Source: Nocardiopsis alba DSM 43377
GTDB taxonomy: Bacteria > Actinomycetota > Actinomycetes > Streptosporangiales > Streptosporangiaceae
Reading direction: 5' to 3'
Assembly: GCF_000341225.1 (NCBI RefSeq)
Contig: NZ_ANAC01000021.1
Coordinates: 1-64,000, forward strand
DNA: 64,000 bases
Of the stretch, positions 4,437 through 59,335 are shown piece by piece. The notes beneath the pieces are model-generated. The model did not search any database, was not told the origin of the DNA, and saw nothing but the letters and a program-made list of their open reading frames with translations. The translations under genes and the position numbers were made by a program. The stretch's first letter is position 1. The number at the start of each line of letters is the position of its first letter.

Positions 4437-5642
4437 GTGCCGTCATCGGACGGAGAGCACCGATCCCCCGTCTCTCCCTCGGAGGTGTCCGCGAGCATGT
4501 CCCCTTCGTCTCCCCGATCCCCCGGCCCCGCCACGAAGAGCCGCTCCCTCTCGTTCCTCGATACCTCGCCGTTCGCGGCGACGGCGATCCTGGCGTTCCT
4601 TCTCCCACCGATCGTCGTGGTCGGCGCGATCCCCCTGTTCCTCGTCTCCCTCTTCGTCGGGGTGTTCGTCTTCCAGGTCGACTCCTACGCCTCGACCGCG
4701 GTCTTCACCGTTCTGGCCGGCGTCGGCCTGGTGGGTCTCGCCTTCCCGCTCCACCGGTTCCTGCGACGGGTGGGCCTGCCACGGCCCCGGGCCCTCGTCT
4801 GCCTGCTGTACCTGGCGATGGCGCTGCCCGCGATCCAACTCCCCTTGTCGATGTTCCTCTCCGATACCGGAGCGGGGGCGTTCCTCGGCGCCATCGGCCC
4901 GGAGGCGGAGGGGGTCCCGTGGATCATCGGCGCCTACCTGCACCTGGCCGTGCTGTGCGCGGTCCTGTTCCTGTGCGAGCGCCGTCGACGTTCCCGTGAC
5001 TGGCTCCCCTCCGACGCCGGGTCCGTCCCCGACGAGGACGTACGGCGTACCGACCGCCGGGTGATCCTTCGAACCTCGGCGGCGCTGGCGGCGACCTTCC
5101 TGATCACCGGGGCCGTCACCGCCGGGATCGCCGAGCGGAGCACCCTCGACCGAGTGGCCGAGGACGCGGCCGGGCTCGGTGATCACACCCGGCCACTCGT
5201 CGTCCTGGACGGCCCCGGCTGGAGGCCGTGGCATGTGCGTTCCCACGGCGACCGGGAGGAGCTCCGGATCGCCTACATGAACGACGATCGGGAGGTCGTG
5301 GAGGTCCACACCATGCCCTTCGAGACGGTCGAGGAGGGGTTCGTCGAGGAGCGATCGATCGAGGCTCCGGGGCTCTCCGAGCGGGAGGCCCGGGTCGCCT
5401 TCGACGTTCTCCCCGGCTTCGTTCCGGAAGGCGACTCCCTGTTCGTCGAACTCCCCGGGACCGACCGCGTCGTGGCCCTGTATCCGGGTATCGACGGCCG
5501 GCACGGCCTTCTTCAGGGGACGGCCCGTTTCGACGTGACCGGAGAGGAGCTGCTGGAGCTGGTCGGGCACCTGCGTCTCCTCGACCCGGGGGACACCGAG
5601 GCGGTGCGCGAGCTCGCCCTCCAGGCACGTACGGCGCGGTGA
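4437..5642 (+). CDS. Multi-spanning membrane protein of unknown function
   Basis: 401 residues from GTG 4437 with CCGGAG just upstream. A Ser/Pro-rich N-terminus (1-40) precedes hydrophobic segments at about 47-82, 88-107, 122-142 and 160-180, a basic cytoplasmic loop (CERRRRSRDW) and another segment near 212-230. The C-terminal 170 residues are soluble and acidic, with no Cys and no recognised motif. I do not recognise the family. It follows the TetR gene by 40 bases and could be in the same transcript. Confidence 0.7.
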   Translation: MPSSDGEHRSPVSPSEVSASMSPSSPRSPGPATKSRSLSFLDTSPFAATAILAFLLPPIVVVGAIPLFLVSLFVGVFVFQVDSYASTAVFTVLAGVGLVGLAFPLHRFLRRVGLPRPRALVCLLYLAMALPAIQLPLSMFLSDTGAGAFLGAIGPEAEGVPWIIGAYLHLAVLCAVLFLCERRRRSRDWLPSDAGSVPDEDVRRTDRRVILRTSAALAATFLITGAVTAGIAERSTLDRVAEDAAGLGDHTRPLVVLDGPGWRPWHVRSHGDREELRIAYMNDDREVVEVHTMPFETVEEGFVEERSIEAPGLSEREARVAFDVLPGFVPEGDSLFVELPGTDRVVALYPGIDGRHGLLQGTARFDVTGEELLELVGHLRLLDPGDTEAVRELALQARTAR

Positions 5643-5939
5643 CCCCGGACGGTTCCGACCCGCTCGGCGACCTCTCCGGCACCCTGAGGGCACCGGCGTT
5701 CCACGAGCTCGTGAACGCCGTCTCCGAGCGCCCGAAACACCGGTACGGAGGTCTGACCACTATCGGTCACCTGCGGTAAAGCCCCGAGGCAGGGCGACCT
5801 CCCCCGGTTTACAGTGGTGTTCCGGTTCCGACCGATCCACGAAACGGCGGTCCCCTCTCCCGCGCGTGGTGGTGCGCGTTCACTCCCGCGAAGGCAGTCC
5901 CGCGCGCCGGCCCGCACCGCCAGAAGGGAGGCCGTTCGG
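5643..5939. other. Intergenic region upstream of Ser/Thr kinase
   Basis: No gene. A possible -10 box TACAGT occurs at about 5810, but no matching -35 was seen. Confidence 0.3.
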
Positions 5940-13883: not shown

Positions 13884-16800
13884 TCAGTGCCGGGGCGTCG
13901 AGATCAACGAGTTGACCAGGACCCCGCCCAGGGCCCCGTGGGCCCTCTTGGTCGCGGGGCGCAACGCGCCCACGTCGATCTTCGTGTACGAGGAGCCCAG
14001 GTGGTCGTCCCACGGAATGCGCACGATCGCGCGGCAGCGGCCTCGGGCCACCCGCTCGGCGGCGTCGACGTCCCGCAGGCTGCGCTTGCTCACCCCGTTG
14101 ACCACGAGCACCGAGTTGGCGCGAAGCGCGGAGTATCCGTTGCCGTCCAACCACTCGAAGGTCATGGACACGGCGCGCTCGGCGTCGGCGCTGGCCGGCG
14201 CGACCAGCACCAGGCCGTCCGCGACCGGCAGGGCCCGCGCCACACCGGTGGCGGCCGGGTCCAGCAACGTCAGACCGTAGAAACCGCCGAGCAGTTCGGC
14301 GAGCTGACCGTAGTCGCGGTCGTCCAGGGTCTGGACGTAGGGATCGTCGAGGGTCTGGACGACCTCCAGCCCGGTCACGGCGCGCCCCGCGTAGGAACGC
14401 ATCCGCTCGTACTCGTCGATCCCGTCGGCGTTGGCCAGCAGGGCCGTGAGCGTCTCCGGCGCCTGGGCCCCGACCCGTCGGGACAGTCCGTTGGGGCCCG
14501 GGTTGACGTCGACCGCGACCACCCTGTCGTCGCGGTGCGCCGCGAGGGTGTGGCCGAGCATCAGCGCGGTCACCGACTGTCCGGCGCCACCGGTGCATCC
14601 GAGGACCACCAGGGCCCGGGGTCGGTCGAGGGGTGCGCGGAGCCGTTCGATGTCGCCCTCGGGCAGGTCCGAGCGCATCGGCGCCGCGCCGCCGGTGACG
14701 ACCCTCGCCAACCGGCGCCATCCCCGGGTGGCCCCGGAGTCGCCCGCGGCCTCGGCGGCGGGTTCGGCCGGTTCGGGGTCGACCCGGCGCGCGGTGCCGC
14801 CTCCGGGGGTGTCCCCCAGGCCATCGTGTTCTCCGGTGCCGTGGTCGAGCTCCAGCTCCTGGGAGGGGGACTCCTCCCGATCGGCCGTCTCCTCGCGCGC
14901 CTCCCTCGTCTCCTGTGCGGTGCGGGGCGCGGGCGGCTCGGGCTCCTCTCCGGGCACGGTCTGTCCGAAGAGTCGGCCGATCCTGCGGGCGTTCTGGGCG
15001 ACCTTGTGGAAGACCCCGTCGTGGGGATCGTGCGGGCCGAAGGACTCCCGGTCCTCCGAGGTGTCCGAGGGGTCGGGCTCCGTGCGCCGGCCGTCCTCCT
15101 CGACGGTCTCCTTCGTGATCCCCGGTTCGGAGGCGATGGCCGGCTCGGCGGCTCCGTCGGCCCGACGGCGGGCGCGCAGGGCGGCCTCCTCGGCCTCGGC
15201 CAGTTCGTCCTCGGTCGGGCGGAGGGCGGCGGCCGCGTTCTCCTTCGAACGGAGACCTTCGACCTTTCGGGGCCTCTCGGGGGCGGGTCGTTCGACGCGC
15301 TCCCGGTTCGTTCCCTCGACCGCGGCGCTGCGCTCCGTGGAGTCGGCCGCGTCCACGGTCCCGGTCGCGCCGGCCCGGACCCGGGGTTCCGGTTCCCGTC
15401 GCACCTCCACGAAGCTGACCAGCTCACCCGTACCGTGATCCAGCTGGGTCGCGGGCTTGGCCGTCTCCTCGCCCCCCTTCGTCGGTGTCCCGGTGGAAGG
15501 GGCGGTCCGCGGTTCCACGTCCGTCCGGGGTTCGGGGTCCTTCTCCAGGACCGTCTCCGGCTCCGGGGCGGGTTCGGGCGCCTCGGTGGCGACGGCCTCG
15601 ACGGCCTCGGGGGCCGGTTCGGGCTTCGGGGCGGGGACGGGGGCGTCCGTCCTCTCCGGTCGACCGTTCTCCCCTTCGGTCCCCCGCTCTCTCGTCTCCG
15701 GTTCCGGAGCGGGCTCGGGTTTCGGCTCGGGCTCCCGTCGCACCTCCACGAAGCTGACCAGCTCACCCGTACCGTGATCCAGCTGGGTCGCGGGCTTGGT
15801 CTCCTCCTCGGGGTCCTCCGTCCGAGGCTCGTCGGCGGACGCCTCCCGCTCGCCGCTCTCCTCCCGCAGTTCCTCCGCCGGGATGACGGGGTTGTCGCGG
15901 TCTCCGACCTTCGGCTGGTCGGGGTGACGGCGCTTGCCGTCGTCGAACCACTCCGCGTCGTCGGTCGGTTCGTTCTCCCGCTCGTGCGCGGGAACGACGT
16001 CGGCGAACTTGGGGCGGGGCGGCGCCGGGGTGTCGGCCTGGATCAGGTGGCGATCGAGCACGGACATGTGCTCGTCCCACTCGGAGTCGTGTCCGGTCCG
16101 CCCCTCACCCTCCGGTTCCCGTCCCGTTCCGCTCCTGTCGGCGGTCTCGGTCCGGGCCTCGCCGAGGCCGTCGGTGGCGTGCGAGGCCTGCGGTCCGGCC
16201 GCGGTCCGGCCGATCCGTCCGGCTTCCGCGGGGGTAGGCTCCTCCCGCTCCGGGGTGGTGGACGCCGGTGGAAGCCATGGAGCCGGGGAGACGTCGCGGG
16301 CCGCTGAGGGCCTGCCCGTGGCCTCGGCGTAGCGCGCGGCGTAGTCGGACAGGTCGGGGTAGCCGCCCGCTTCGGAAGAGGGGTCGCTCGACGCGCCCTC
16401 CCGATCGGCGCCGTCCGGGTCGAGGGACCAGGGGGCGGCGTGCGGCCGCCCCTTCGGCCCGGCGGGCCCGTCCACGGGGTCGGTGTCCTCGGTGGCGGGC
16501 AGGGCCGTACCCCGCGCGCGTATCGGGGGTTCGGCGGGACGGACCCGTTCGCGGACCGGTTCCCGTTCGACCGTGTCGGCCACCCGTGTGTCGTCGGTGA
16601 CGTCGACCGGACCGGTCTCGCGCTCCCGGCGGTCGGCCAGGTCCTTGGCGACCCGGATGCCCTGGGCGCGTCCGCGCAGACGACGGGCGGCGGTCGACTC
16701 CGAACGACTCTCGGTCGGCTCGGGCGCGGCCATGATCTCTTCGGCGCGACGCCGATCCTCGGAACGCTCGGCGGCCGATCGGACCGCCGAGGCGAGTTCA

Positions 16801-17870
16801 TCGGTGCTCATGGCGCCGGTGTCGGATTCGGCGTAGGCGCTCTTGGAGGACAGACCGATCGGTGTCTCACCGGAGGAGGCGCGCAGTCGGGCGAGCCACT
16901 CGTCGCGGTCGCGTCGTTCGTCCTCCTCGGTGGCGTGGACGGGCTCGTCGAAGACATCTCCCTCGATGTTCGAGCCCTCCCCACCGACACGATCCCGAGC
17001 GTCGTCCTCGGGTTTCTCCCGGGCCTCGCCGTCACCACCGCCACCGGTGTTCAGGGCGAAGCCGAAGTAGTTGAGTACGCGGCGGCCGACCCCGGGACGG
17101 GCGCCGTCGTCGCTTTCGCGGGCCTCTACGGCGGCCATCGCGACGTGGGTGTCCCCGAGGCCCTCCGTGGTCTCCCGCGTACCCTCAGTGTCCTCCTTGG
17201 CCGGCGCTCCGGCGGTGACCGGAACCCGCGTGTCGGGGGCCTCGACCGTCTTCTCCGGTTCGGTGAGCCGGTCGCCGGGGTCGGGGAGCGGCTCGACCTC
17301 CCTCGCGGCGGGCTCGGGGGCGGCCACCCCGCGCAGCGGCGGCGCCGCCTCCCCGACGGCGCGCGGATCGCGTTCGACCTCGCTCGGGGCGGTGGATTCG
17401 ATGGAGGCCTCTTCGGAGACCTCGATCTCCTCCGTCTCGGCGGCCTCTTGGTCGCGGCGTGCGCCCCGGGGCAGGGGAAGCGGCCCGGCGGCGGGGTCGC
17501 GGTGCCACACACGCACCGCCACACGCACCTCCGAGGGCTCGTACTCCGGGGCGAGCCTGGTGTACACGCGCGCCTCGGTGAGGAAACGCGCCTGTGAGAT
17601 GAGCAGCTCCGTGAGGCGCTTGCCCTCGATCACCGGCCGGGTCGCCAGCACGGTGATCACCCCCGGTGGCACGACCCACAGCACCAGGTGCCAGCCGTTG
17701 CCGAACTCGAAGGGGGCGTTGACGATGCTCAGCAGCACCACCCAGAGCGCGAAGACCCCCAGCGCGACACCGAAGGTGCCGACCGGGAGCGGCATGGGCA
17801 GCCGGAAATCGTAGAGCTTGTAGAGCCTCTTCTCGATACGCCAGATGTTGGTGTACGTGGGCAGATCCAC
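13884..17870 (-). CDS. TcpE-like membrane domain fused to MinD/ParA-like domain by long acidic linker
   Basis: 1328 residues. Residues 1-130 match the TcpE family: YTNIWRIEKRLYKLYDFRLP, two hydrophobic segments (about 27-50 and 58-82) and LTELLISQARFLTEARVYTR. Residues 145-1080 are disordered, rich in Glu, Pro, Arg and Ala, with the motif LDHGTGE three times and a perfect 67-bp DNA repeat. Residues 1085-1328 resemble MinD/ParA ATPases: VVLGCTGGAGQSVTALMLGH, VVAVDVNPGPNGLSRR, a TLLDPA box and VLVVNGVSKRSL. The signature Lys of Walker A (GK[ST]) is Gln and the first Lys of the deviant motif is missing, so ATP hydrolysis is doubtful. TcpE is a small inner-membrane T4SS subunit in pCW3. It is the third gene of the C-D-E operon. 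A scaffold or substrate-capture role for the tail is an inference. Confidence 0.8.
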   Translation of the reverse strand: MDLPTYTNIWRIEKRLYKLYDFRLPMPLPVGTFGVALGVFALWVVLLSIVNAPFEFGNGWHLVLWVVPPGVITVLATRPVIEGKRLTELLISQARFLTEARVYTRLAPEYEPSEVRVAVRVWHRDPAAGPLPLPRGARRDQEAAETEEIEVSEEASIESTAPSEVERDPRAVGEAAPPLRGVAAPEPAAREVEPLPDPGDRLTEPEKTVEAPDTRVPVTAGAPAKEDTEGTRETTEGLGDTHVAMAAVEARESDDGARPGVGRRVLNYFGFALNTGGGGDGEAREKPEDDARDRVGGEGSNIEGDVFDEPVHATEEDERRDRDEWLARLRASSGETPIGLSSKSAYAESDTGAMSTDELASAVRSAAERSEDRRRAEEIMAAPEPTESRSESTAARRLRGRAQGIRVAKDLADRRERETGPVDVTDDTRVADTVEREPVRERVRPAEPPIRARGTALPATEDTDPVDGPAGPKGRPHAAPWSLDPDGADREGASSDPSSEAGGYPDLSDYAARYAEATGRPSAARDVSPAPWLPPASTTPEREEPTPAEAGRIGRTAAGPQASHATDGLGEARTETADRSGTGREPEGEGRTGHDSEWDEHMSVLDRHLIQADTPAPPRPKFADVVPAHERENEPTDDAEWFDDGKRRHPDQPKVGDRDNPVIPAEELREESGEREASADEPRTEDPEEETKPATQLDHGTGELVSFVEVRREPEPKPEPAPEPETRERGTEGENGRPERTDAPVPAPKPEPAPEAVEAVATEAPEPAPEPETVLEKDPEPRTDVEPRTAPSTGTPTKGGEETAKPATQLDHGTGELVSFVEVRREPEPRVRAGATGTVDAADSTERSAAVEGTNRERVERPAPERPRKVEGLRSKENAAAALRPTEDELAEAEEAALRARRRADGAAEPAIASEPGITKETVEEDGRRTEPDPSDTSEDRESFGPHDPHDGVFHKVAQNARRIGRLFGQTVPGEEPEPPAPRTAQETREAREETADREESPSQELELDHGTGEHDGLGDTPGGGTARRVDPEPAEPAAEAAGDSGATRGWRRLARVVTGGAAPMRSDLPEGDIERLRAPLDRPRALVVLGCTGGAGQSVTALMLGHTLAAHRDDRVVAVDVNPGPNGLSRRVGAQAPETLTALLANADGIDEYERMRSYAGRAVTGLEVVQTLDDPYVQTLDDRDYGQLAELLGGFYGLTLLDPAATGVARALPVADGLVLVAPASADAERAVSMTFEWLDGNGYSALRANSVLVVNGVSKRSLRDVDAAERVARGRCRAIVRIPWDDHLGSSYTKIDVGALRPATKRAHGALGGVLVNSLISTPRH
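15394..15460. repeat. 67-bp perfect direct repeat, copy A
   Basis: Identical to 15733-15799, 339 bases away (113 codons, in frame). It encodes the linker peptide that includes TQLDHGTGELVSFVEVRRE in the TcpE fusion. Perfect identity at wobble positions implies recent duplication or gene conversion. Confidence 0.95.
15733..15799. repeat. 67-bp perfect direct repeat, copy B
   Basis: Second copy of the repeat at 15394-15460, in the same reading frame of the TcpE-fusion linker. Confidence 0.95.
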
Positions 17871-17889
17871 GGTCTCCGGCCTCCCTCGC

Positions 17890-18219
17890 CTATTCCGTCG
17901 GTACGCCCATCGCTCGGGCGAGCGCCACCGCGATGACCTCGATGATGCCGGGGACGTAGAAGACGATCCCGATGAAGATCGCCAGGATCAGGAACTGCGC
18001 GAACCGTGTGATCTCCCTGGTGAACAGGAAGAAGATCGCGACGATGGACACGATGACGAGGAAGAGCGGCCCGAAGAAGCCTCGCAGGAAGTCCGCGAGT
18101 CCACCGGTGTCGGGGGCGTTCTCCGTCGTTCCCGGGGTGGCGTCGGCCGCCAGGTGGAGGAGGTCCGTGCCACCGATGGCCGTCATGGCGTCGGCGGTCG
18201 AGGACAACAGGGGGAGCAT
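17890..18219 (-). CDS. Small T4SS membrane protein (TcpD-like)
   Basis: 109 residues from ATG 18219 with GGAGGG upstream. Two hydrophobic stretches at about 47-66 (GFFGPLFLVIVSIVAIFFLF) and 72-100 are separated by TREITRFAQF. This two-helix architecture, the length, and its place between TcpC-like and TcpE-like genes fit the TcpD family of pCW3-type conjugation systems; a VirB2/VirB3-like role has been proposed for such small subunits. It starts 72 bases after the TcpC stop and ends 19 bases before the TcpE-fusion start, so the three form one operon. Confidence 0.65.
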   Translation of the reverse strand: MLPLLSSTADAMTAIGGTDLLHLAADATPGTTENAPDTGGLADFLRGFFGPLFLVIVSIVAIFFLFTREITRFAQFLILAIFIGIVFYVPGIIEVIAVALARAMGVPTE

Positions 18220-21329: not shown

Positions 21330-21523
21330 ACCCGCCCTCCGTCCCGCCCGGGTGACCGGGGGATCCGCGGGAACGGGTACCCCCCACCCCTATCCGACGG
21401 AAACCCCGACGAGGCACCCGCTCCCCACACGCCGCCCCTCGAAGAGCGACCCTCACCCGCACGTTCCCGGCCACTCCCCCACCACCACTCCGACTCCCCG
21501 ATCATGGGGATCACCTCTTGCAA

Positions 21524-21544
21524 ATATACCCCCCAGGGGTATAT
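21524..21544. promoter_or_regulatory. CsoR-type copper operator
   Basis: ATATACCCC-CCA-GGGGTATAT: 9-base perfect arms. The ATACCCC...GGGGTAT pattern is the established recognition site of Cu(I)-sensing CsoR repressors in actinomycetes. It lies 62 bases upstream of the His-rich protein gene. csoR itself is not in the window. Confidence 0.8.
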
Positions 21545-21606
21545 GTTCATGGTCATCGCCCCGAGAACGGGACGGCACCGACAGGACCAGAGCATCGGGA
21601 GTCACC

Positions 21607-22455
21607 ATGCGGAACCACACCGGCCACGACACGACCGCCCACACGCACCACGCCGACCACGGCGACCACTCGACCCACGCCGCCCCCGGCGGCCTCTCCG
21701 TCTCGGAGAACGGCCACACCCTCGAGTTCGACTCCACGATTTTCGACGCCGGCACCCGGACGGTCACCTTCCGGGTGATCGGCCCCGACGGGCGGCCGGT
21801 GACCGAGTACGTCCCCGAGCACGAGAAGGAACTGCACCTCATCGCCGTCCGCCGCGACACCTCCGGGTTCCAGCATGTGCACCCGGTGATGGACGAGAAG
21901 GGCACCTGGAGCGTCGAGGTCGCCCTGGAACCCGGCGACTGGAGATTCTTCGCCGACGTCCACCCCGCCGGTCACGACGGGACCATGACCCTGGGGATCG
22001 ACGTCTCCGTCGCCGGACACTACGAGCCTCGTCCGCTCCCCGCGATCGATCGGGTCGCCCGGATCGGCGACCACACCGTCACCCTCGACGGCGAACTCGT
22101 CGCAGGGCAGGCCCGCGAGCTGACGCTCACCGTCGCCCGCGACGGTGAACCCGTCACCGACCTCCAGCCCTACCTCGCCGCCTATGGACACCTGGTGGCG
22201 CTGCGCGTCGGCGACCTGGGCTACCTCCACGTCCACCCCGAAGGCGCCCCCGGCGACGGCGTCACCGCGCCGGGCCCGGAGATCACCTTCATGGCGGTCG
22301 CCCCGTCCGACGGCGTCTACCGCCTCTACCTGGACTTCCTGCACGACGGGGTCGTCCGCACCACCGAGTTCACGGTCCGGACCACCGCGACCGTTCCCGG
22401 GCCGGACGCCGCGCACTCCCACGAGGGGCACCACGACGCCCACGCCCACCACTGA
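21607..22455 (+). CDS. His-rich copper-associated protein
   Basis: 282 residues from ATG 21607. The N-terminus carries a His cluster (HTHHADHGDHSTH) and the C-terminus another (HSHEGHHDAHAHH). Between them are two beta-rich domains with internal His motifs (QHVHPVMDEKG, FFADVHPAGHDG, YLHVHPEG). There is no signal peptide, so a cytoplasmic metal buffer or chaperone is suggested, though secretion by another route cannot be ruled out. It is the first gene of a three-gene unit behind a CsoR-type operator, 32 bases before an AhpD-like gene. I know similar proteins beside actinobacterial copper-resistance genes, but none has a firm function. Confidence 0.75.
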   Translation: MRNHTGHDTTAHTHHADHGDHSTHAAPGGLSVSENGHTLEFDSTIFDAGTRTVTFRVIGPDGRPVTEYVPEHEKELHLIAVRRDTSGFQHVHPVMDEKGTWSVEVALEPGDWRFFADVHPAGHDGTMTLGIDVSVAGHYEPRPLPAIDRVARIGDHTVTLDGELVAGQARELTLTVARDGEPVTDLQPYLAAYGHLVALRVGDLGYLHVHPEGAPGDGVTAPGPEITFMAVAPSDGVYRLYLDFLHDGVVRTTEFTVRTTATVPGPDAAHSHEGHHDAHAHH

Positions 22456-22487
22456 GCCGACGTCCCGACATCCGAAGGGCCACGATC

Positions 22488-23018
22488 ATGACCCGCCTGA
22501 ACCGACTCACACCCGAGACGGCGGTCGGCGCCTCACGCGACCTCCTGACCGACCTGGTCTCCCGTCATGGCCGCGTCGGAGACATGGTCTCCACCATGGC
22601 GCACTCGCCGGCCGTTCTCGGCGGCTACCTCCAGCTCGGCCGCGCCATGCGACGGGCCCGGCTCGACCGCCGGATCTCCGAACGGATCTCGATCGCCGTC
22701 CAGACCCACCAGGGCTGCGCCCTCTGCCTCGACGCCCACATCGACGCCGCCCGCTCCCTGGGGCTGGACGAGGAAGAGATCGAGCGCGCCCGGGCCGGCA
22801 CCTCGGCCGACCCCGCGATCGCCGCGATCATCGCCCTCGCCCTCCAGGTCCACCGCGAACCGTCCTCCATCACCGACGAACGGATCGTCGAGTTGAGGGA
22901 GCACGGCTACAGCGACCGGGAGATCGCCGACGTCGTCGGTGTCGTCTCCCTGAACGTCCTCACCGGCGCCTTCAACCTGCTCGCCGGCCTCTCACCGGCC
23001 ACCACCGACGGTGTGTAG
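22488..23018 (+). CDS. AhpD-like / carboxymuconolactone decarboxylase-family protein
   Basis: 176 residues. The redox motif C77-A-L-C80 with H84 (QGCALCLDAH) is that of AhpD-type peroxidase partners. The surrounding RISERISIAVQTH matches the CMD domain core. Such proteins act as thiol reductants or peroxidases. It belongs to the copper-operator unit (32 bases after the His-rich gene, 80 before the MFS gene), which suggests protection against copper-driven oxidation (inference). Confidence 0.88.
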   Translation: MTRLNRLTPETAVGASRDLLTDLVSRHGRVGDMVSTMAHSPAVLGGYLQLGRAMRRARLDRRISERISIAVQTHQGCALCLDAHIDAARSLGLDEEEIERARAGTSADPAIAAIIALALQVHREPSSITDERIVELREHGYSDREIADVVGVVSLNVLTGAFNLLAGLSPATTDGV

Positions 23019-23098
23019 CCGTACTCCGGCCCCGTGTCGAGGGGCGCGGCCCCGCCCGCGAGACCGCGCCCCTCCACGTCGGCCTGGAAGGAAACGTC

Positions 23099-24376
23099 AT
23101 GCGTCTGTTCACCATTCGCGACTATCGCTACCTGTTCAGCGCCCAGGTGATCGCCCTGTTCGGCACCGGGCTGACGACGGTCGCCCTCGGACTGCTCGCC
23201 TACGAGCTCGCCGGCCCGCGCGCCGGTGCCGTCCTCGGCACCGCACTGACCATCAAGATGGTCATGTACGTGGTCATCGCGCCCTTCGCGGCCGCGTACG
23301 CCGACCGGCTCCCCAGAAGAGGGTTCCTGGTCCTCCTCGATCTCCTGCGCGCCGGGGTGGTCCTGGCGTTGCCGTTCGTCACCGAGATCTGGCACATCTA
23401 CGTTCTGATCGCCCTGCTGCAGGCCTCGTCGGCGGCGTTCACCCCGACGTTCCAGGCGGTCATCCCCGACATCGTCACCGACAAGGCCGCCTACACGCGG
23501 GCCCTGTCCGCCTCGCAGGTCGCCTACACCATGGAGAGTCTGCTCAGCCCGGTCCTGGCCGCGGTCGCCCTGCTCTTCATGGGCTTCGACCTGCTGTTCG
23601 TCGGCACCTCCGTCGGGTTCGCCGTCTCCGCTCTGCTCGTCCTGGCGACCCGCATCCCGAACGCCCGCCCCAGCGCCCACAGCGGGGTCCGGGAGAAGCT
23701 GGTCGCGGGGATCGGGACCTTCGTCCGAACCCCGAGGCTGCGCGGCGTCATGGCGCTCAACATGGTGGTCGCGGCGGCCGGTTCGATCGTCGTCGTCAAC
23801 ACCGTCAACCACGTACGTGACCGGCTCGGCGGTTCCCAGTCGGACGTCGCCTGGATGTTGGCCGTCTCCGGTCTCGGAACGCTGCTGGCCGCCCTCGTCC
23901 TGCCCCGCCTCCTCGACCGGATCGCCGAACGCACCGTCATGGTGACCGGCGCCGGGGTCCTCGTGGCCGGAACACTCGGCGCCCTGGTCCTCGTCGCCGT
24001 ACCCGCGGCCGGATGGGCCGGCACCGCGATCGTCTGGGGCGTGATCGGCGTCGGAACGGCCCTGGTCGTCACCCCGACCGGCAAGGTCCTGCGGGCGTCC
24101 GTCCCGCCGAACCGGATACCCGAGGTCTTCGCCGCCCAGTTCTCTCTGTCGCACCTGGCCTGGCTGGTCACCTACCCCGTCGCCGGCCGGCTCGGAACCG
24201 CGGCCGGGCTCGCCCCCGCCTGGACCGTCCTCGCCGTCCTGGCCGCCGCCGGAGCCGTCGGAGCCCTCCTACTGTGGCCGCGCCGCGACGTGGACGGACC
24301 CGCGGACGAGATGGAGTCCGCCGAGTCCGTGTCCCCTTCGGAGACCACCGGCCGGAGGTACGGGCCCGCGGCCTGA
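23099..24376 (+). CDS. MFS transporter
   Basis: 425 residues from ATG 23099, preceded by GGAAGGAAACGTC. About twelve hydrophobic segments; the family loop between helices 2 and 3 reads APFAAAYADRLPRRGFLVLLD. The opening FTIRDYRYLFSAQVIALFGTGL is typical of the enterobactin-exporter-like/MFS_3 group. The substrate is not predictable; its position after the copper operator suggests copper or a copper-related metabolite export (inference). Last gene of the unit, followed by a hairpin at 24401-24433. Confidence 0.9.
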   Translation: MRLFTIRDYRYLFSAQVIALFGTGLTTVALGLLAYELAGPRAGAVLGTALTIKMVMYVVIAPFAAAYADRLPRRGFLVLLDLLRAGVVLALPFVTEIWHIYVLIALLQASSAAFTPTFQAVIPDIVTDKAAYTRALSASQVAYTMESLLSPVLAAVALLFMGFDLLFVGTSVGFAVSALLVLATRIPNARPSAHSGVREKLVAGIGTFVRTPRLRGVMALNMVVAAAGSIVVVNTVNHVRDRLGGSQSDVAWMLAVSGLGTLLAALVLPRLLDRIAERTVMVTGAGVLVAGTLGALVLVAVPAAGWAGTAIVWGVIGVGTALVVTPTGKVLRASVPPNRIPEVFAAQFSLSHLAWLVTYPVAGRLGTAAGLAPAWTVLAVLAAAGAVGALLLWPRRDVDGPADEMESAESVSPSETTGRRYGPAA

Positions 24377-24400: not shown

Positions 24401-24433
24401 GAGGGGCGGACCGCGATGAGCGGACCGCCCCTC
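24401..24433. terminator. Bidirectional terminator downstream of MFS gene
   Basis: GAGGGGCGG and CCGCCCCTC arms with further internal pairing (CCGC/GCGG), between convergent genes. Confidence 0.65.
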
Positions 24434-57970: not shown

Positions 57971-59335
57971 ATGAGCCAACCCGAGGCTTTCGGACGCTAC
58001 CGCGTCATGCGACGCCTGGGTTCCGGTTCGTTCGCCACCGTCTGGCTCGCCCAGGACGACCTGCTGAACTATCCGGTGGCCATCAAGGTACTCGCCGAGA
58101 ACTGGGCGCACCAGATGGACATCCAGCACCGGTTCCTGGAGGAGGCGCGCATCCTCCGACAGACCGATTCCACCTGGCTGGTGGCGGTCCACGACGTCGA
58201 TGTGCTGCCCGACGGCCGCCCCTACATGGTGATGACCTACGCCGACCAAGGCAGTGTCGCCGACCTCATCCACCGCGGTCAACTACCCCTGGACGAGGCA
58301 CTGCGCCTTCTGACCGAGATCGGCCAGGGGATCACCGTCCTGCACAACCACGGCACCATCCACCGGGACATCAAACCCTCCAACGTCCTCCTACAGTCCT
58401 CTCCCGTGGGCCAACGCGTGCTCGTCGCCGACCTGGGCTTCGCCAAGTCCATCGACGAGGCCTCCGGGTTCACCGCCGCCGCGGGCACACCCGGCTACAT
58501 GTCCCCCGAGCAGAGCATGCCCGGTGGTGACCTGGACGTTCGCTCCGATGTGTACTCGCTGGGCGCCGTCGCCTACGAACTCATCACGGGGAGACCTCCC
58601 TCACGCCCCCCTGTGCGGATCGCACCTGGCCGCATCCGGCCAGGTCTTCCTCCGGCGCTCGACGAACTGATCCTCTCCGCCCTGTCCGTGGACCGGGAGA
58701 GCCGCCCCGCCGACGCCAAGACCTTCACCGACCGGGTCAGGGCGATCCGTATGTCCAGCGATCTACCGCAGGACATCCCCTGGTGGCAGCGCTACCGCAT
58801 GCCCTGGCCGAGGGCCGGGGCCCTCACCGCCGTCTGCGGCCTGCTCGCGCTCGGGCTCACCACCTCGCTCGGCGTGCCCGGGGTCTCCCTGTCCACGGTC
58901 CGCTACGCCGACCAGGAACTCCGTGTGGACGTGCCCACGGCATGGGCGCGCGAGTTCCACACCGACCAGGAGGCCCGCCCCGCGGCCGCCGAGGCCGGAG
59001 CGGGCCCCGGGCTCCTCGTGGCCACCGGTGCCGACGAATGGCACAACACCGACGTCCCCTCCTACGGGGTGTACGCCACCGTGGTCCCCGGCGCCCCCGA
59101 CCTGCGCAACGTCGCCGACACCGACCCCTGTCCGAAGCCGCCCGAGGAACGCATGGTCGACACCCCCCATTGGGAGGGCGGCCTCTGGGAGTGGCCCGAC
59201 TGCAACGGCGGCGCCTTCACCGCCGCCGCCGTCCACCCGCCGGGCACCCCCAGGACCGTGTACCTGGAGATCCGCCAACCCGACTATCGGCCCGACCTCG
59301 TCGACGAGATCATCGCCGGCGTACGGCTCCGGTAG
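57971..59335 (+). CDS. Membrane Ser/Thr protein kinase with DLG in place of DFG
   Basis: 454 residues from ATG 57971 (GAGGCGG upstream). Kinase domain at 8-265: glycine loop LGSGSFATVWLAQD, YPVAIKVLAENW, HRDIKPSNVLL and PGYMSPEQSM. The metal-binding motif is DLG (VLVADLGFAKS) instead of DFG, a tolerated variation. One membrane helix around 280-300. External part (305-454) has no recognised fold, with two Cys (DPCPKPPEE, WPDCNGG) that may pair. Divergent from an ECF sigma factor; convergent with aztD only 16 bases away, with no terminator in between. Confidence 0.9.
   Translation: MSQPEAFGRYRVMRRLGSGSFATVWLAQDDLLNYPVAIKVLAENWAHQMDIQHRFLEEARILRQTDSTWLVAVHDVDVLPDGRPYMVMTYADQGSVADLIHRGQLPLDEALRLLTEIGQGITVLHNHGTIHRDIKPSNVLLQSSPVGQRVLVADLGFAKSIDEASGFTAAAGTPGYMSPEQSMPGGDLDVRSDVYSLGAVAYELITGRPPSRPPVRIAPGRIRPGLPPALDELILSALSVDRESRPADAKTFTDRVRAIRMSSDLPQDIPWWQRYRMPWPRAGALTAVCGLLALGLTTSLGVPGVSLSTVRYADQELRVDVPTAWAREFHTDQEARPAAAEAGAGPGLLVATGADEWHNTDVPSYGVYATVVPGAPDLRNVADTDPCPKPPEERMVDTPHWEGGLWEWPDCNGGAFTAAAVHPPGTPRTVYLEIRQPDYRPDLVDEIIAGVRLR

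Follow-up and report, generated by a model that had tools for sequence, protein, structure and literature searches.

A probable accessory copper-stress operon behind a CsoR-type operator in Nocardiopsis alba

The operator and the genes behind it

The 64,000-nucleotide stretch of the Nocardiopsis alba DSM 43377 genome analysed here (the window; contig NZ_ANAC01000021.1, positions 1 to 64,000) carries a compact unit of three forward-strand genes, which encode a His-rich protein without a membrane anchor (HisR), a CMD/AhpD-like protein and an MFS transporter, and a CsoR-type operator stands ahead of them. As the preliminary description of this DNA had stated, the box ends 62 bases before the HisR start codon (ATG at 21607) and the unit includes neither a P-type ATPase nor a csoR gene. 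Comprising three open reading frames and no P1B-type ATPase, it is not an efflux operon of the copZA type. The features of the locus are as follows.

21518 to 21547, forward strand: putative promoter, read by eye, which the box straddles
21524 to 21544, no strand assigned: CsoR-type (type 2) operator ATATACCCC-CCA-GGGGTATAT of TAC-N9-GTA form, identified from the sequence and 27 relative loci
21607 to 22455, forward strand: HisR, anchorless His-rich protein of 282 amino acids, identified from open reading frame, alignment and hydropathy
22488 to 23018, forward strand: CMD/AhpD-like protein of 176 amino acids, identified from PF02627 and alignment
23039 to 23074, forward strand: 11-bp perfect inverted repeat, an RNA hairpin by folding, between the ahpD-like and MFS genes
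23099 to 24376, forward strand: MFS transporter of 425 amino acids (PF07690; nearest NCBIfam model TIGR00900, below cut-off)
24401 to 24433, forward strand: 9-bp inverted repeat after the MFS gene, by folding a possible terminator, with no T run; a terminator scan did not report it

The operator is a perfect 9-bp inverted repeat around a 3-base spacer, and it has the TAC-N9-GTA arrangement with G/C tracts that defines type 2 CsoR operators. It matches 19 of the 20 fixed positions of the consensus ATATACCCCTNAGGGGTATAT given for streptomycete CsoR, for which TAC-X9-GTA spacing is termed conserved (PMC3902906; all PMC identifiers here refer to excerpts of the articles concerned). Under a first-order Markov model derived from 143.5 kb of the same genome, the 9+3+9 palindrome ATATACCCC-N3-GGGGTATAT is expected 3.5e-7 times per genome, while TACCCC-N3-GGGGTA is found at six perfect sites in the 5.82 Mb against 0.13 expected. 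The reversed pattern, allowing up to one mismatch, gave 9 sites versus 14 for the real one; this is a weak control, and the estimate rests on the Markov model. Across the relatives, the box arms form the most conserved upstream block: TACCCC and GGGGTA carry 1.8–2.0 bits per position, and the region from -45 to -5 does not exceed 0.6 bits. Conservation extends to some positions immediately 3′ of the box (up to 2.0 bits), as would be expected of a promoter. Hexamer-like sites can be read by eye at TTGCAA (21518–21523) and at either TATATG (21540–21545, spacer 16) or TATGTT (21542–21547, spacer 18), and a Shine-Dalgarno-like GGGAG lies 5′ of the HisR ATG.

A genome-wide search for CsoR and further boxes, as the preliminary description had proposed, found both. 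Two PF02583 proteins are encoded, and the one on contig 13 carries the copper motif YC.D...H...C (motif as in PMC4531530), which identifies it as a copper-type CsoR. It scores 153.6 bits against the NCBIfam RicR model, under the cut-off of 175, and a degenerate box precedes its gene. Its best PDB match is 4adz, a 'copper sensitive operon repressor' (E 2.2e-35), which we take to be the Streptomyces lividans protein. The six perfect sites comprise two before copZ-copA on contig 11, one in the window and three elsewhere.

Several other genes in these genomes carry similar boxes. For example, a perfect and an imperfect box lie ahead of a DUF1326 gene on contig 15 (L014 4844–5672), and a DUF1326 gene of Streptomyces atratus, close to the HisR operon, is preceded by two CsoR-type boxes (L097 3112–3909); no paper on DUF1326 together with copper turned up in a literature search. 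Similarly, perfect boxes stand just 5′ of a beta-lactamase-class PF00144 gene on contig 10 (L012 4140–5301) and ahead of a 66-residue open reading frame without a Pfam match on contig 7 (L011 4497–4780).

Distribution and mobility of the gene set

Close relatives of HisR were drawn from 12 loci in named genomes (ten Streptomyces, Actinocorallia populi and a record titled Microtetraspora glauca) and from 15 loci in 295 sampled genomes of the genus holding the Streptomyces matches. The analysis covered all 27 loci, 24 of them distinct and nearly all from Streptomyces. The hisR of the 'Microtetraspora' record (L096) is identical to that of a locus from the sampled genus (L111), so that the record's title may be wrong. 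In every one of the 27, a TACCC-N5-GGGTA box with TAC-N9-GTA spacing starts 50–112 bp before the alignment-extrapolated hisR start, the identical 21-mer recurring in one of them (L112), and an MFS relative follows hisR (72–91% identity over matched segments). The AhpD-like gene is present in 18 loci, and in the other nine the MFS gene follows without it. The layout is thus uncommon (15 of 295 sampled genomes) and recurrent. Window-type HisR was found in none of 36 other genomes of the window's own genus, where the best matches were 55% identical; a lone MFS gene found in that genus (G021; 74% identical) is accompanied by an N9 box. Among 394 genomes sampled across the class, one full-length HisR match was 75% identical and the next 60%, with a further partial match of 115 residues containing a stop (G303; 71% identical). 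The box, HisR and MFS also occur together on a megaplasmid of Streptomyces clavuligerus.

A link to known copper genes is seen on two Arthrobacter plasmids, pA58H2 and pA40H1, where the gene order is YHS-CsoR-HisR-AhpD-MFS, the box TACCCCCTGGGGGTA stands between csoR and hisR on both, and the adjoining CsoR carries the copper motif. On pA40H1, the Tn3-family transposon Tn6516 could be delimited by its two end repeats, at record positions 58641 and 73526, which agrees to within a base with the published length of 14,887 bp (PMC6305408). Inside these ends lie a copZ-X-copA operon (62613–66067) with two N9 boxes before it, and the YHS-CsoR-HisR-AhpD-MFS set (69112–73298). The former corresponds to the reported COP module of CopZ, a 'heavy metal-binding' protein and CopA (PMC6305408), the middle protein of which (X) is a membrane-anchored relative of HisR. 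The excerpt of that paper attributes copper resistance to the three COP genes only and makes no mention of HisR-AhpD-MFS in the same transposon. The earlier suggestion of a CsoR-type operator ahead of HisR-AhpD-MFS is therefore borne out by the box in all 27 relatives, by csoR upstream of the Arthrobacter sets and by the Tn6516 copy beside copZ-X-copA, and copper-responsive control of the window unit by CsoR is very probable on this comparative evidence.

It is highly improbable that the box is instead read by a CstR-like paralogue, a persulfide sensor, with the operon answering reactive sulfur species and not copper. The second PF02583 protein, on contig 11, is indeed CstR-like: it lacks the motif His, its gene adjoins genes that by eye resemble rhodanese and persulfide dioxygenase, and the sites of the two paralogues look alike. 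However, the sites at the CstR-like locus have TAC-N8-GTA spacing, in contrast to the TAC-N9-GTA of the window and its 27 relatives, and the Arthrobacter operon adjoins a CsoR with the copper motif. Three such N8 sites, one base shorter than CsoR sites, were read by eye at that locus (L016 ~4600–5150), where the pattern script reported none, and N8 versus N9 is possibly a spacing code between the two paralogues. An AhpD gene in another locus (L055) has an N8 box and no HisR within the 3.5 kb examined; AhpD alone could therefore answer CstR.

The encoded proteins and their relatives

HisR was called cytosolic-looking in the preliminary description, and hydropathy agrees: the window protein, the Arthrobacter protein and 12 relatives are all free of hydrophobic segments, while each of the seven cop-type homologues with intact starts that were examined has a single N-terminal one. 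HisR has no Cys. Its 25-row alignment contains two sets of invariant residues, H77, D84, H90 and H92 and then H195, D203, H208 and H210, the same kind of motif thus appearing once in each half, with six invariant His in total. The AlphaFold2 model (mean pLDDT 87.5) is mostly beta from about residue 30 to 260, with low-confidence His-rich ends. VIA-align returned common Ig-like arrangements (Z ≤ 8.9), and Foldseek matched Ig-like proteins and Zcp, including its copper form; as the TM values for Zcp are 0.22–0.25 despite low E values, these matches are a hint at the fold only. Neither HisR alone nor its profile found a PDB relative below E 0.4. The scores against Pfam DUF4198 (23.4 bits; gathering cut-off 34) and YtkA (19.2 bits; cut-off 25.9) are likewise low.

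These matches bear on the proposal that the unit is a general metal buffer whose HisR binds nickel, zinc or cobalt instead of copper, which we consider unlikely. The DUF4198-like signal recalls IsDUF4198, a characterised nickel-binding protein that resembles HisR in its His-based metal site but differs in being secreted, its N-terminal residue after signal cleavage being a His, while HisR has no signal peptide (PMC12537917). In addition, zinc, cobalt and copper structures exist for Zcp. We assume the Foldseek Zcp to be the product of gonococcal zcp; that gene is Zur-regulated (PMC13343924). In contrast, it is copper genes that adjoin the anchored relatives of HisR and that sit in Tn6516, and HisR itself is, on balance, likely to be a copper binder, as its conserved residues and gene neighbourhoods suggest.

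The next relatives of HisR (44–57% identity) adjoin copA in a number of actinobacteria, and several of them, at least among the matches listed, lie between copZ or csoR and copA. In the tree, a branch with support 90/30 has the anchorless HisR rows on one side, with 1 change against 8.6 in shuffles. The simplest reading would be of an anchored, CopA-partnered ancestor whose anchor was lost in the MFS-partnered line. A Prescottella equi plasmid protein (p1-WH99, L145; WP_286462050.1) had appeared to be an anchorless member of a csoR-copZ-X-copA operon, as annotated, and was rejected as such: translation of the bases by hand places an in-frame N-terminal membrane anchor upstream (~5800–5935), so the deposited start is probably too late. 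It was coded among the 'cop' rows in the tree and grouped with the anchorless rows at 100/99. The anchored relatives are analogous to CupA of Streptococcus pneumoniae, which binds copper, has a membrane leader and is the product of a cop-operon gene (PMC5646241). CupA, however, has a cupredoxin fold with Cys ligands, and HisR, with neither Cys nor leader, is not a CupA-like chaperone.

Two further forms were observed around CopA. One is a CopA-HisR fusion (L053 3688–6939), in which a HisR-like domain with its own hydrophobic segment forms the CopA C-terminus. The other is a 61-residue open reading frame with a single transmembrane segment between copZ and copA on contig 11 of N. alba (L013 5051–5236), where some relatives encode a full anchored HisR homologue. 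It was rejected as a broken remnant: 31 of 40 genomes of the genus (this one included) encode an N-terminus like it, and in 28 of the 31 the open frame is no longer than 155 residues, so that the frame looks like a kept short form. Gene order around the short frame was examined for the N. alba copy only.

The second protein contains the CxxC/H redox motif noted earlier (C77-x-x-C80-x3-H84) and belongs to the CMD/AhpD-like family (PF02627, E 1.6e-10, 41.2 bits against a cut-off of 23). E65, C77, C80 and H84 are invariant in all ten aligned sequences. It passes the core-domain model TIGR00778 (39.2 versus 27.8 bits), and its PDB relatives are of AhpD type (best 6e8l, E 2.6e-12), while its score of 23 bits against TIGR00777 (cut-off 191.95) places it outside AhpD sensu stricto.

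The third protein is a clear member of the MFS superfamily (PF07690, E 1.5e-29, 103.5 bits against 33.4), and its profile found no PDB relative at E 0.001. Its sister proteins (48–54% identity) have an ArsR/SmtB-like regulator adjoining in all eight loci read (L170–L177, L179–L183), and the two of these regulators tested by NCBIfam exceeded the HTH_metalloreg cut-off. Met56, Met145 and Met253 are conserved in the boxed MFS clade (14, 15 and 15 of 15 sequences) and absent from the seven aligned sisters, an eighth (L177) having been left out after poor alignment. Of the seven conserved Met positions, five are specific to the clade, compared with 52 of the 247 remaining conserved positions (Fisher p 0.007). 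With the initiator Met set aside and Met320 missing from the window protein, three of the five are left. This hints weakly at Met specificity of the boxed clade. A second kind of MFS gene, presumably DHA2-like, recurs behind or near CsoR-type boxes (L037, L043 and L088; PF07690 tested for L088 only).

The transporter could alternatively be a drug exporter under copper control, which would expel an antibiotic or ionophore that carries copper and raises its level in the cytosol, while HisR mops up the metal released and the AhpD-like protein handles thiol or disulfide stress; we regard this as possible, though doubtful. The best NCBIfam match of the transporter is the H+ antiporter model TIGR00900 (2A0121; 244.6 against a cut-off of 319.6 bits), followed by Tet(V), also below cut-off, and a redox partner together with an accessory operon in an antibiotic-producing genus would fit such a role. 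However, the metal-type regulators beside the sister proteins fit a metal link, and in Arthrobacter the unit shares a transposon with copper genes.

Similarly, it is quite improbable that only HisR is under the box, with the AhpD-like and MFS genes expressed separately and the hairpin acting as a terminator. The 80-base gap before the MFS gene does fold into a strong hairpin (-43 kcal/mol), but an MFS gene follows in every relative locus, nine times without AhpD between, and the lone MFS gene carries its own box. A GC-rich hairpin occurs at this place in relatives too, and in several Streptomyces some of its pairs differ from those of the window in both partners; its conservation is uneven, several relatives being without the full 5′ arm.

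The limits of the unit were also considered. The upstream HxlR gene was rejected as a member, as its partner is RidA in all 19 relative loci examined, and none of these has the operon genes within ~1.5 kb on either side. DUF6506, the downstream neighbour in the window, is not near HxlR in those loci, which therefore offer no clean empty site for the operon. Large minus-strand genes at window positions 15001–18219 look like components of a membrane complex of the conjugation type, belonging to an actinobacterial mobile element.

A model of copper defence and its precedents

Taken together, the unit is probably a copper-stress operon that is accessory, has spread horizontally, is repressed by CsoR and supplies a cytosolic copper binder, a redox enzyme and an MFS exporter. 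As the box and gene set recur in soil actinobacteria, and on plasmids beside copper-resistance genes, it most likely serves as a reserve copper defence that does not depend on the usual pump. The first step of the proposed mechanism is well supported by sequence comparison: apo-CsoR, encoded elsewhere in the genome, would sit on the box over the promoter until binding of Cu(I) releases it. HisR would then bind excess copper through its two conserved three-His sets and His-rich tails, as conserved residues and neighbours suggest, and the AhpD-like enzyme, which is not always present, may, by analogy with its family, repair thiol or peroxide damage. The MFS protein would take the place of CopA and export copper, a copper-ligand complex or a copper-carrying toxicant. 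This is the weakest step; export of copper or a native copper complex is a tentative proposal, and export of a copper-carrying toxicant is equally so. Rather unlikely is the more specific scheme of an exit independent of P-type ATPases, in which the MFS protein is a Cu(I) exporter fed by HisR, the HisR anchor having been lost on the move from the CopZ-CopA to the MFS operon, and Met56, Met145 and Met253 form the copper path.

Several observations weigh against a copper-stress operon of this kind. A Cys-less protein is expected to be a poor cytosolic ligand for Cu(I) against the Cys-based CopZ and CsoR, the nearest Pfam families of HisR (DUF4198 and YtkA) are matched only below their cut-offs, and the characterised DUF4198 protein prefers Ni(II) and is not stabilised by Cu(II) (PMC12537917). 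The transporter is nearest to drug/H+ antiporters and not to a known metal transporter, the hairpin could uncouple its gene from the first two, and a sigma-70 consensus scan reports no promoter site at the box.

Among the closest known systems, the CsoR-controlled copZA operons of S. lividans (PMC3902906) have a type 2 operator of the same 21-nucleotide form, and a CsoR of the same type is encoded in the window's genome, but the window unit has an MFS and an AhpD-like protein instead of CopZ and a P-type ATPase. Searches of literature titles and abstract openings found no description of HisR-AhpD-MFS under CsoR, although the JBC 2012 paper on the S. lividans CsoR regulon may list some of the genes. 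Rv0849 of Mycobacterium tuberculosis, presumably an MFS protein, is likened to the window transporter by annotation and not by sequence comparison. It is listed in the RicR regulon table as a 'probable conserved integral membrane transport protein' with MymT and LpqS (PMC10470581), which gives a precedent for control of an MFS-like gene by a CsoR-type copper repressor. Described at the outset as unusual, the layout is better called uncommon: it recurs and has this partial precedent in M. tuberculosis. The RicR regulon differs in that MymT is a metallothionein and the excerpt names no HisR-AhpD-MFS unit, and the CMD gene Rv0771 stands in the same table outside its RicR and CsoR groups (PMC10470581).

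If this interpretation is correct, a mobile CsoR-controlled module, in which an MFS protein and a cytosolic His-rich protein replace CopZ and CopA, would be added to the copper defences of bacteria. With the unit it can be tested directly whether copper, or toxicants loaded with it, can leave the cell through MFS proteins, and the unit's history is one in which a putative metal-binding domain seems to switch compartment together with its transporter partner.

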